This document shows positions 7,545-10,537 of a stretch of DNA of 38,632 nucleotides, piece after piece. The first letter of the stretch is position 1; the number at the start of each line of letters is the position of its first letter. Source of the stretch: a virus; IMG/VR virus record IMGVR_UViG_3300037493_002702, positions 1 to 38,632 of that record; one strand, 5' to 3'. A program made the translations under genes and the position numbers. The notes beneath the pieces were generated by a model that was not told the origin of the DNA, did no database searches, and worked only from the letters and a program-made list of their open reading frames with translations.

Positions 7545-9518
7545 CTATTTGCCGTAACGTGTCATTACTTCCGCTTCAATGTCGAGCGGGATACCGCCGG
7601 CCCAATTCGGCGGTGTACACATGGCGCGGCGCATGGCGGCCACGGTCGCATCTGGATCGGCGGTTTCGCACACAATCTCGTCATGCACATGCAACACCAC
7701 CTCTTGCCCCTCTGCCTCTAGCCGTCGCAGGCTGGCGCGCAATAAGTCGTGCGCGGCGGCCTGGGTGACATTCTCACAAGCCAGCCCGCGCCAGAGCCGG
7801 GCGCGGGGCCATTCTGTCGCATCGGCGGCGGGCTTCCAAGACGCTTTGGCATAGGTCACGCCGTCCGCTTCCAGCTTCGCAAACGGGTAGCGTAGCACAC
7901 GGCCCGACGGCAGGGCATACCAAAGATGCGTTCCGTCGAACAAATAGGTAATCAGCCCGGCGCTAAACTCGCGCCCGCGGTTTCTCATGGCGCGCGTATA
8001 GGCGCCCTCAAGAGCCTGCCAGAACGGCAACGCCCAGGGGTTCGCCCGGCGCCACGCATCCACCATGCGCCGCGCCTCGCTCTCGGGCAGGTGAACGCCA
8101 TAGACGCGGCCCATGGCCGCGAAGGCCCCCACGCCGCCGGCAAAGCCACACGCCAATTCCTGCACCTTGCCGACCTGGCGCTGGTCCTTGGTCACTTCAT
8201 CCACCGACACGCGAAACGTCGCCGCGGCGTTGACTTTATACACGTCCTGCCCGGTGCGGAACAATTCCAGCTTGGCCTCGCCGTTGCCGGATAGCCAGGG
8301 GTTCACGCGCGCCTCGATGGCGGACCAGTCAGCAGCCGCCAGCACCTTACCGGGCGACGGCATCATGGCCGGGCGCAGCATCCCCTTCAGCACGTCGGTA
8401 ACGCGCTTGCCGTGCGCCGGGACAATCTGGTGCCCCCTCACCATGGCCTGCCGCACATCATCCGGCGCGGCGGCGCACTTGCGTGGGAAATTGTGAACCT
8501 GCAAGCCGTAGCTGGACGCGCGGCCCGTCGCCGCGCCGCCGGCGAACACGAACGCGCCGCGCACCCGATCATCCTCCTTGTCGGCCAGCGCCGCGGCGCG
8601 GTTGAACTTGGCCACGCTGGACGCCCAAAGGTCGTCCGCGCATTGGATTACCTCGGCCACATCGGGCGGAACCTCGTCGGGGTTCTCGTCGGCCAGGTCC
8701 AGCAGGTTAGCCCGCACCGTCTTGTCAATCGAAACCTTGGCCTCGCCGTCCTTATAGACGATCATCAGCTTGCGCGCTTCCGGCCCTACCCGGTGTTCCA
8801 CCCAAGCGCGCATTTTGGGGCTGCGAACGCTGGTAATGGCGCCCGCTGTCACCTCTCGAACGACTTGCTGGATTTCCACCAACTCTTGCTCGGCGTAGCG
8901 CGCGGCGGCAGCGCATAGCGCCGTGTCCACCAACACGCCCCGGTCATTGATCCGCTCGTTGACGTGGTAATCGGCCAATTCTTCCTCGGACAAATCACGC
9001 ATGGCCTTACTGACCGCGCGCATGGCGCGCACGTCCTGCTCGCAATACTGGACCATTTCGGCCATTAGCGCCGGGTCTTCCCGAAACGTGCCGTCGGGCT
9101 TGGGGACGCACAGCGCGCGGATAAGCTGCGCGCCGCGGTAATCCTTCTTCATGCTCGCGCCCGCAAACCGCCCCACGTCTTCCAGACTGCCAGGGCCACA
9201 ATTCGCGCGGGCTTGCGTCGCGGTGCAATAGAACTGCTCTAGCGCGGGCTCGGGAAAGGCTTGCTCGGGCGCCAGGACGTACCAGAAGATAAGGCGCTCA
9301 AAGGCGGCGTTGTGCGCCCTGATCTGCCCCCGGTGATGCGCCACGCGGGCGGGGAACGGTTGACCGGGTAGCCAGGTCGCCACGTCCTCGTCACCAAAGG
9401 CGTAGGACATGCACAACAATTCGGTGCTGGCGTCCTGCGCGTAATTGTACGCCCCGGCGCTCGGCAGGTCGCAACGGCTGCGGGTTTCAAAATCTAGCCA
9501 GAGGATCACGGCTGGCAA
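7545..9518 (-). CDS. DNA polymerase, family A, with 3'-5' exonuclease
   Basis: This 657-aa protein is the phage replicative polymerase. The N-terminal proofreading domain shows D9-F-E11-T (Exo I), H-N-A-A-F-E (about 69-74, Exo II) and Y158-C-E-Q-D162 (Exo III). Polymerase motif A is A-D397-W-S-A-I-E-A-R, motif B is K-D-Q-R-Q-V-G-K ... F-A-G-G (about 444-462), and motif C is H-V-H-D-E at about 610-614. No 5' nuclease domain is present, as usual for phage Pol I enzymes. Its start overlaps the 3' end of the methyltransferase gene by 13 bases. Confidence 0.96.
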   Translation of the reverse strand: MPAVILWLDFETRSRCDLPSAGAYNYAQDASTELLCMSYAFGDEDVATWLPGQPFPARVAHHRGQIRAHNAAFERLIFWYVLAPEQAFPEPALEQFYCTATQARANCGPGSLEDVGRFAGASMKKDYRGAQLIRALCVPKPDGTFREDPALMAEMVQYCEQDVRAMRAVSKAMRDLSEEELADYHVNERINDRGVLVDTALCAAAARYAEQELVEIQQVVREVTAGAITSVRSPKMRAWVEHRVGPEARKLMIVYKDGEAKVSIDKTVRANLLDLADENPDEVPPDVAEVIQCADDLWASSVAKFNRAAALADKEDDRVRGAFVFAGGAATGRASSYGLQVHNFPRKCAAAPDDVRQAMVRGHQIVPAHGKRVTDVLKGMLRPAMMPSPGKVLAAADWSAIEARVNPWLSGNGEAKLELFRTGQDVYKVNAAATFRVSVDEVTKDQRQVGKVQELACGFAGGVGAFAAMGRVYGVHLPESEARRMVDAWRRANPWALPFWQALEGAYTRAMRNRGREFSAGLITYLFDGTHLWYALPSGRVLRYPFAKLEADGVTYAKASWKPAADATEWPRARLWRGLACENVTQAAAHDLLRASLRRLEAEGQEVVLHVHDEIVCETADPDATVAAMRRAMCTPPNWAGGIPLDIEAEVMTRYGK

Positions 9519-10537
9519 TTCATCACGGCTTGGATGAACTCGACGGCGAGCGGCGCGACAATCGCGTTGCCGTAGGCGCGCAGTCGTCCCACTCGGGCGG
9601 GGGCCCCATGAGCCAGCGGGAATGTGCCGGGTTCAACTGGCCGCCACTTTCCATCCCGGCACAGGAGCCAGTCAGCGTCTCGCCAGAAGCCGTGTAGCGG
9701 GCCGGCTGGTCCGTCGAGAGTGCGAGCTTCACGGACGCCGACAGGTCCATCGTCACCTTGGAGCCGTCGGGCATCCGGCCCGTCATTGACACGCCTTCCC
9801 GAAACCCCTTGCCGCCCACCCCGTCGCTCGCCGCTGTCGTCGGCCACCCCGCCAGCACCGCCATTTCGTTCAGCGGCCTGGCGTTGTGCGTCAACTCGTT
9901 TCCCGGGCTCAGCGCCCCCTTGTGGTCCCGCGCCTGCGGGCTGGGCCACCCGGCTAGATGCGTCGCCACCGCCGTCAACGTGTCTGCCTTGCCCCGGCCC
10001 CACCTCATTCCGCTGCTCTCGCCGTCTTCTAGCCGGGGCGTTGGCCACCCACCAAAGGCGCTGTCGGATGTGCGGAGCGCCGACGCTCGCCGCGCCAAGA
10101 TCAGCGGCTGCGACGGCCCATCCCAATGCTTCCAGGTCAACCCGTACAGAGACGAGCCAGTCTCGACCAAGCGCGCTTGCAACCTGCTCTCCAAAGACCG
10201 TTGCAGGTTGGCACTTGCTAATAAGCCGGGCAAATTCAGGCCACAAGTGCCGCTCGTCGGCAAAACCGTCGCCTCGACCGGCGGCGCTGAAAGGCTGGCA
10301 GGGGCATGAGCCGGTCCAGACGGGCCGGTCGTCGGGCCATCCTGCAAGGCGCAGCGCGCGGGACCATACGCCGATCCCGGCGAAGAAATGGGCTTGTGTA
10401 AAACCTGCGATGTCCTCCGCAGCCACGTCCCGAATTGATCGCTCATCTACTTCCCCCGGCGCGATATGCCCCGCCGCAATCAGATTGCGAAGCCATTGGG
10501 CAGCGTAAGGCTCTATCTCGTTGCAATATGCGGCCAT
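9506..10537 (-). CDS. C5-cytosine DNA methyltransferase
   Basis: It transfers a methyl group from S-adenosylmethionine to C5 of cytosine in DNA, probably shielding phage DNA from host restriction. The frame extends upstream to 10687, but conserved sequence begins at M-A-A-Y-C-N-E-I-E (ATG 10537), giving 343 aa. Motif I is F-F-A-G-I-G (51-56), motif IV is S-C-P-C-Q-P (77-82) with catalytic Cys80, motif VI is G-E-Q-V-A-S with Glu117, and motif VIII is R-Q-R-L-W-W (158-163). A motif X-like Y-G-N-A-I lies near the C-terminus. The target-recognition region (about 166-285) is unusually Gly/Arg-rich in this frame. A second long ORF (9523-10446) lies entirely inside this gene in another frame. Confidence 0.93.
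9523..10446 (-). CDS. Overprinted ORF inside the methyltransferase gene, G-W-P-T-P repeat family (307 aa)
   Basis: This ORF lies on the same strand as the methyltransferase but in another frame. Its ATG at 10446 has GGGGGAA a few bases upstream. The predicted protein contains [13 protein letters not shown], then [10 protein letters not shown], then A-S-A-L-R-T-S-D-S. Three G-W-P-[TS]-[PT] units follow, and it ends [14 protein letters not shown]-x-P-P-E-W-D. I recognise these phrases from many phage proteins deposited beside cytosine methyltransferases. They arise by reading the motif VI-VIII and C-terminal DNA of such enzymes in another frame. The ORF is either a true dual-coding gene or a conserved by-product. 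The sequence alone favours but does not prove translation. Confidence 0.45.

Follow-up and report, generated by a model that had tools for sequence, protein, structure and literature searches.

Does a long open reading frame (ORF) that lies inside another gene, on the same strand, encode a protein of its own, and if so, what might that protein do? The question is raised by a methyltransferase gene in the window, i.e. the whole stretch of viral DNA analysed here, positions 1 to 38,632 of the IMG/VR virus record IMGVR_UViG_3300037493_002702. Namely, the ORF list of the window contains, on the minus strand, an ORF for the catalytic subunit of a C5-cytosine methyltransferase, here called alpha (a 393-aa version starting at an upstream GTG is also listed), and, in the +1 frame relative to it, an ORF of 307 codons with an ATG start, here called beta (Table 1). 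A preliminary description of the locus had put the share of the methyltransferase gene covered by this inner ORF at about 90%, and the measured value is 89%. A family A DNA polymerase gene lies on one flank of the methyltransferase and a phrog_9528 gene (nucleotidyltransferase by its label) and then a DUF2800/exonuclease gene on the other; a paired restriction enzyme was considered among the neighbouring genes only, and the immediate flanks are these polymerase, phrog_9528 and DUF2800 genes. The same DNA is also covered by a 294-codon antisense ORF (9624-10508, plus strand), which was rejected as a real signal, its P value under synonymous shuffling being about 0.05 in the window and its homologues showing no enrichment.

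The answer that we consider highly probable is that the locus encodes a two-subunit C5 methyltransferase, with the catalytic domain and the DNA-reading domain written into a single stretch of DNA in two frames. In particular, the outer frame would give alpha, the catalytic large domain with motifs I-VIII, a long disordered linker and motif X, and the inner +1 frame, read from its own ATG within alpha, would give beta, a small DNA-reading domain, in which an N-terminal part is followed by interchangeable GWPTPxxxD target-recognition modules arranged in an array, and then by motif IX. Alpha and beta would then assemble into a single enzyme, with the modules of beta setting which sequence becomes methylated, and the methylation would probably serve to protect phage DNA against host restriction.

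Table 1. Features of the overlapping genes (window coordinates).
Feature	Position	Strand	Basis or remark
Alpha, C5-cytosine methyltransferase catalytic subunit, outer frame	9506..10537	-	343 aa, ATG at 10537
Beta, putative DNA-recognition subunit, inner +1 frame	9523..10446	-	phrog_1008, phrog_31772; stop-depletion, codon-position and start-site tests
Proposed beta start, ATG 10446-10444 with GGGGGAA 10457-10451	10444..10457	-	sequence
Possible second start of beta, TTG at inner codon 62	10261..10263	-	uncertain; may be a conserved Leu codon
Outer motif I (HFFAGIG)	10370..10390	-	alignment
Outer motif IV, catalytic Cys (GSCPCQPFS)	10286..10312	-	PCQPFS invariant in alignment; PF00145 match
Outer motif VI (GEQV)	10181..10192	-	invariant in alignment
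Outer motif VIII (13 letters)	10043..10081	-	alignment; PF00145
Outer Gly/Arg-rich linker, predicted disordered, where the target-recognition domain is expected	9701..10042	-	
Outer motif X (21 letters)	9533..9595	-	hhalign
Candidate inner recognition module 1 (GWPTP...)	9952..10050	-	module clustering
Candidate inner recognition module 2 (GWPSP...)	9850..9951	-	same module in L001, L043, L084
Candidate inner recognition module 3 (GWPTT...)	9718..9849	-	common to seven other loci, once at a different position
Inner motif IX (20 letters; core of 13)	9583..9642	-	hhalign

Selection on both reading frames

Both frames are under selection, as can be seen first from their stop codons. Namely, in 77 phage loci fetched with the outer protein (a few extra ones coming from a search with the inner protein), the interior of the +1 frame contains 3 stops versus approximately 213 expected, and the +2 frame of the same loci contains 910 versus 761 expected. 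The median longest open +1 stretch in these loci is 321 codons, as compared with 174 under synonymous shuffling, and for the window's own outer gene, 1 in 300 synonymous shuffles gives an open +1 frame of at least 307 codons. For the reciprocal ascertainment, the inner alignment served to fetch 80 bacterial loci, and in all 80 the outer frame is present, with an identical +1 offset. In the 78 distinct loci among them, the outer frame carries 1 stop versus approximately 489 expected. Inner-synonymous shuffling, for its part, predicts 214 stops in the outer linker, where none is seen. An outer frame that is dead past motif VIII is ruled out by these two results. Related loci are counted as separate in these statistics, and yet their kinship leaves the verdict unchanged, since the counts are too extreme and the two ascertainments agree.

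Resolved by region in 59 non-redundant loci, the +1 stops (seen/expected, by outer codon range) are enriched over codons 2-30 (84/52; about 10448-10534 in the window), close to expectation over codons 31-37 (6/5), and depleted from codon 38 on: 2/19 over codons 38-60, 1/7 over 61-91, 0/53 over 105-134, 0/13 over 135-164, 0/52 over 165-280 and 2/26 over 281-318. Over codons 319-343 (about 9509-9583 in the window) they are enriched again (45/30); stops in this frame are, in other words, commoner than expected both directly before and directly after the inner gene. Inner-frame stops in relatives with an intact outer frame, which the preliminary description had named as evidence that would speak against a second gene, are by these regional counts almost absent. 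Two loci (L236 and L261) present the reverse picture, a stop interrupting alpha with the inner frame intact, and are possibly decaying prophage genes or sequencing errors.

The distribution of differences over codon positions offers a second line of evidence. In the first 30 codons, which are not shared, the differences between loci fall mostly at outer third positions. In the middle region, the fractions at outer positions 1/2/3, taken from ungapped matches, are 0.72/0.18/0.11, 0.67/0.21/0.12 and 0.59/0.25/0.17 by identity class; in the comparison of the window with its nearest relative (L001), 22, 8 and 6 differences fall at the three positions. Outer position 1 is inner position 3, and with 59-72% of the differences located there, the middle of the gene evolves as an ordinary inner-frame gene. 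Judging by this pattern, selection there acts on the inner frame, which does not evolve like non-coding sequence, the other outcome that had been held to count against it. What is more, inner second codon positions coincide with outer third positions, so that nearly every synonymous change in the outer frame also changes the beta protein. The outer fourfold synonymous divergence, 0.71 outside the overlap, drops to 0.30 in the part that precedes motif VIII, to 0.16 in the C-terminal part and to 0.008 over the codons that encode inner motif IX. Synonymous constraint was also looked for in outer codons 33-48 (inner residues 3-18), where none was found; this counts against the two-subunit reading as set out above, and implies that beta is probably not tied to a particular sequence at its beginning.

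As for how beta is made, we infer that it is translated from its own start inside alpha. The GGGGGAA noted in the preliminary description does lie upstream of the inner ATG, four bases ahead of it, and the four nearest relatives have an ATG at the same codon, preceded by GGAG. Among the 59 loci, a start codon with a Shine-Dalgarno (SD)-like sequence is enriched at outer codons 31 and 37, with 24 of the 59 having both at codon 37 versus 3.4 expected, and the depletion of stops switches on beside these codons and off at the end of beta. Programmed frameshifting from alpha, which would yield a fusion of the alpha N-terminus to beta along with full-length alpha and would dispense with a separate start, is in our opinion an unlikely alternative: it would fit the onset of the strongest constraint only near outer residue 105, as well as the evolutionary frame switching seen in related actinophage enzymes, where the modules are fused in frame or lie in +1 (L121), but it is at odds with the enrichment of starts and SD-like sequences at codons 31 and 37 and with a depletion of stops that sets in right past these codons, following an upstream stretch enriched in stops. 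A downstream start at the TTG listed in Table 1 was considered as well and set aside. Namely, an SD-like sequence and a start codon are found there in 45 of the 59 relatives versus 13 expected, but this may reflect inner-frame coding, and the site is missing from the window's nearest relatives.

Motifs and modules of the two proteins

Alpha matches PF00145 (E 1e-13) over motifs IV-VIII, with the match ending near motif VIII, as well as phrog_363 (E 1e-83). The hallmarks of the PF00145 catalytic large domain, motif I, the PCQ of motif IV, motif VI and motif VIII, are all found in alpha, with motif VI reading GEQV in place of the usual ENV. In the AlphaFold model of alpha, the large domain, which Foldseek matches to M.HhaI/M.HaeIII, and the motif X helix are predicted with confidence, whereas confidence is very low in the linker (pLDDT mostly 33-46 over residues 191-283). 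Conservation of the linker in the alignment is mostly 10-30%. Outer motif X aligns in hhalign (E 7.8e-5) to the in-frame motif X of actinophage methyltransferases, in the columns directly past motif IX.

Beta matches phrog_1008 (E 7.6e-29) and phrog_31772 (E 8e-31). Its alignment shows, in succession, GSTLYxLTWK, PSGRS and RTS phrases, typically two to four GWPTPxxxD modules, and finally a near-invariant phrase of 19 letters. This C-terminal phrase is, by homology, motif IX of C5-cytosine methyltransferases: in hhalign, it aligns to the in-frame motif IX of the actinophage enzymes with a probability of 96% (E 4.6e-9). The match spans motif IX only, without the modules, which we count against our reading. 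The three GWP[TS][PT] units of the window lie at inner residues 133, 166 and 200, where the outer protein is poorly conserved and, as had been pointed out earlier, rich in Gly/Arg. Across the 59 loci, 154 modules fall into 93 clusters, 13 of which have at least three members, and several clusters recur at different positions or in different orders within the array. The minimal beta, with one module, occurs in phages 6947 and SAP012 and in a Lacticaseibacillus plasmid. One locus, on Paenibacillus polymyxa plasmid pAP1 (L194), has two motif IX phrases (GQLNPxWVECLMGFP) in the +1 frame within one alpha gene.

Motif IX, motif X and the recognition domain are thus not found in one chain: alignment places motif X in the outer frame and motif IX, together with the modules, in the inner one, so that the two motifs are partitioned between the frames. 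In single-chain actinophage methyltransferases, one and the same frame carries the catalytic domain, the modules and both motifs, and phrog_1008 also matches the C-terminal half of one such enzyme, gp76 of Mycobacterium phage Rita (E 2e-61), as well as a separate protein, Float294 gp61. Motif IX and the modules of beta are, by this homology, the counterpart of the in-frame C-terminal half of the single-chain enzymes, and the inner frame very probably makes the target-reading half of the enzyme.

Several results count against this reading. Taken alone, beta gives a poor AlphaFold model (pLDDT 57), which was not used further, and no relative of its sequence was found in Pfam, NCBIfam or the PDB; profile searches of the PDB, whether started from beta or from the in-frame C-terminal halves, likewise returned nothing meaningful. 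In a spliced alpha-beta chimera, the PF00145 match was not extended into motif IX/X. The lack of a confident predicted fold for beta alone would agree with an accessory or regulatory protein, e.g. a modulator of host restriction, rather than a recognition half. We hold this to be very improbable, given that motif IX and the modules are found where single-chain enzymes have their recognition part, and that alpha has no other recognition domain.

Of the preliminary description, then, both overprinting and a role in target recognition are supported by stop, codon-position and homology evidence, and the inner ORF is a true overprinted gene; the inner motif IX and the two-subunit precedent had escaped it.

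Occurrence in phages, plasmids and bacteria

The same two-frame layout is, as far as sequences tell, kept in hundreds of phages and bacteria. For example, 66 distinct loci with 38-60% GC, related to Firmicutes enzymes, were fetched with the alpha proteins of Paenibacillus phage Tadhana and of Lacticaseibacillus. The +1 frame is open at P<=0.05 in 64 of them, and the motif IX pattern, present in 54, is always in frame +1 and never in frame 0. Both genes are annotated in Tadhana (47% GC, beta in +1) and in the K1ind3 record. Most records examined annotate alpha only, so that for many phage methyltransferases the half that determines specificity has probably gone unannotated. Nearly all matching loci in plasmid records have only one gene annotated, and Salmonella phage SAP012 (L182) has neither.

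The Lacticaseibacillus, Roseicitreum and Bacteroides plasmids were tried as non-overlapping controls and rejected, the same inner frame being present in them; in the Bacteroides plasmid, it is found alongside an alpha with stops. The usable control is a set of split actinophage loci with a short overlap, in which +1 stops before motif VIII are near normal (26 seen, 30 expected). The enzyme alone, in other words, does not keep the +1 frame open there. Actinophage loci of the fused type show a mild depletion in this region (12 seen, 22 expected), and the +1 frame of Rita still matches phrog_1008 over the N-terminal part of that family (E 2.4e-25), which suggests that the fused forms derive from overlapping ones. 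Among the actinophages (L105-L150, L096), some loci have the modules joined in frame to the catalytic domain and others have them in a +1 gene, and even the close relatives L119 and L121 differ in this respect, so that fusion and splitting of the frames recur.

The possibility that the inner ORF is a mere by-product, a false family created by a conserved, GC-rich enzyme, has next to nothing left in its favour: GC-rich sequence does favour open frames, and at motif VIII the inner frame indeed reads as a mirror of the outer motif (the 26-letter correspondence given in the preliminary description is correct), but such a spurious ORF is refuted by the stop, codon-position and synonymous tests, by AT-richer relatives that also keep the +1 frame open, and by the split actinophage enzymes, which have near-normal +1 stops where a deep overlap is missing.

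With moderate confidence, we further propose that the overlap is the standard form of a methyltransferase class spread by phages through elements of Proteobacteria, Firmicutes and Bacteroidota, which would acquire its specificities by module swaps that matter in the +1 frame only, the outer frame having merely to stay open as a linker. The overlap also offers a clean system for studying how two proteins that probably have to bind one another evolve on a single stretch of DNA, and how specificity can change when modules are exchanged under dual-frame constraint. A survey of 968 prokaryotic overlaps longer than 60 bases found no real co-directional overlap (PMC2478687); here, a same-strand overlap of about 900 bases is kept by selection in both frames at many loci, and both of its products have an identifiable role.

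Comparison with known systems

We found no description of the phage class in the openly readable literature, most subscription papers and REBASE being outside our scope. PHROG families 363 and 1008, matched by the outer and inner proteins, respectively, are both labelled DNA methyltransferase, and the label of the latter is silent on a second frame or subunit. Rita gp76 shares with the window's locus its type of module (LPTPxxxD) and both motif IX and motif X, but has everything in one frame and one protein, where the locus uses two frames. M.AquI is a C5 methyltransferase split, as here, into two polypeptides that share one catalytic unit; its small subunit carries motifs IX and X (PMC3404938), whereas motif X of the window stays in the outer frame, so that the M.AquI pattern of a small subunit with motif X is not found. 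The split actinophage loci among L121-L150, and Float294 gp62/gp61, are AquI-like.

The nearest parallel is M.EcoHK31I. Its small gene presumably sits within the large one but in a different frame, as does the inner ORF here, and its small subunit, of 176 aa, is shorter than beta; unlike the window's locus, it belongs to a restriction-modification system. Neither its sequence nor an adjacent restriction enzyme was found in the plasmids searched. According to PMC3404938, citing Lee, Kam and Shaw 1995, this enzyme (YGGCCR) is a two-polypeptide C5 methyltransferase whose larger polypeptide has motifs I-VIII and X together with a predicted recognition domain, motif IX being in the smaller. Compared by this description, the division of motifs is that of the window, with I-VIII and X in the outer frame and IX in the inner. 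The placement of the recognition domain differs and counts against our reading, as that source assigns it to the larger polypeptide; at the present locus, selection and homology point to the inner-frame module array instead. A two-subunit enzyme with overlapping genes would thus have a reported precedent in M.EcoHK31I; less known are the breadth of its occurrence, the modular recognition array and the placement of that array in the inner frame.
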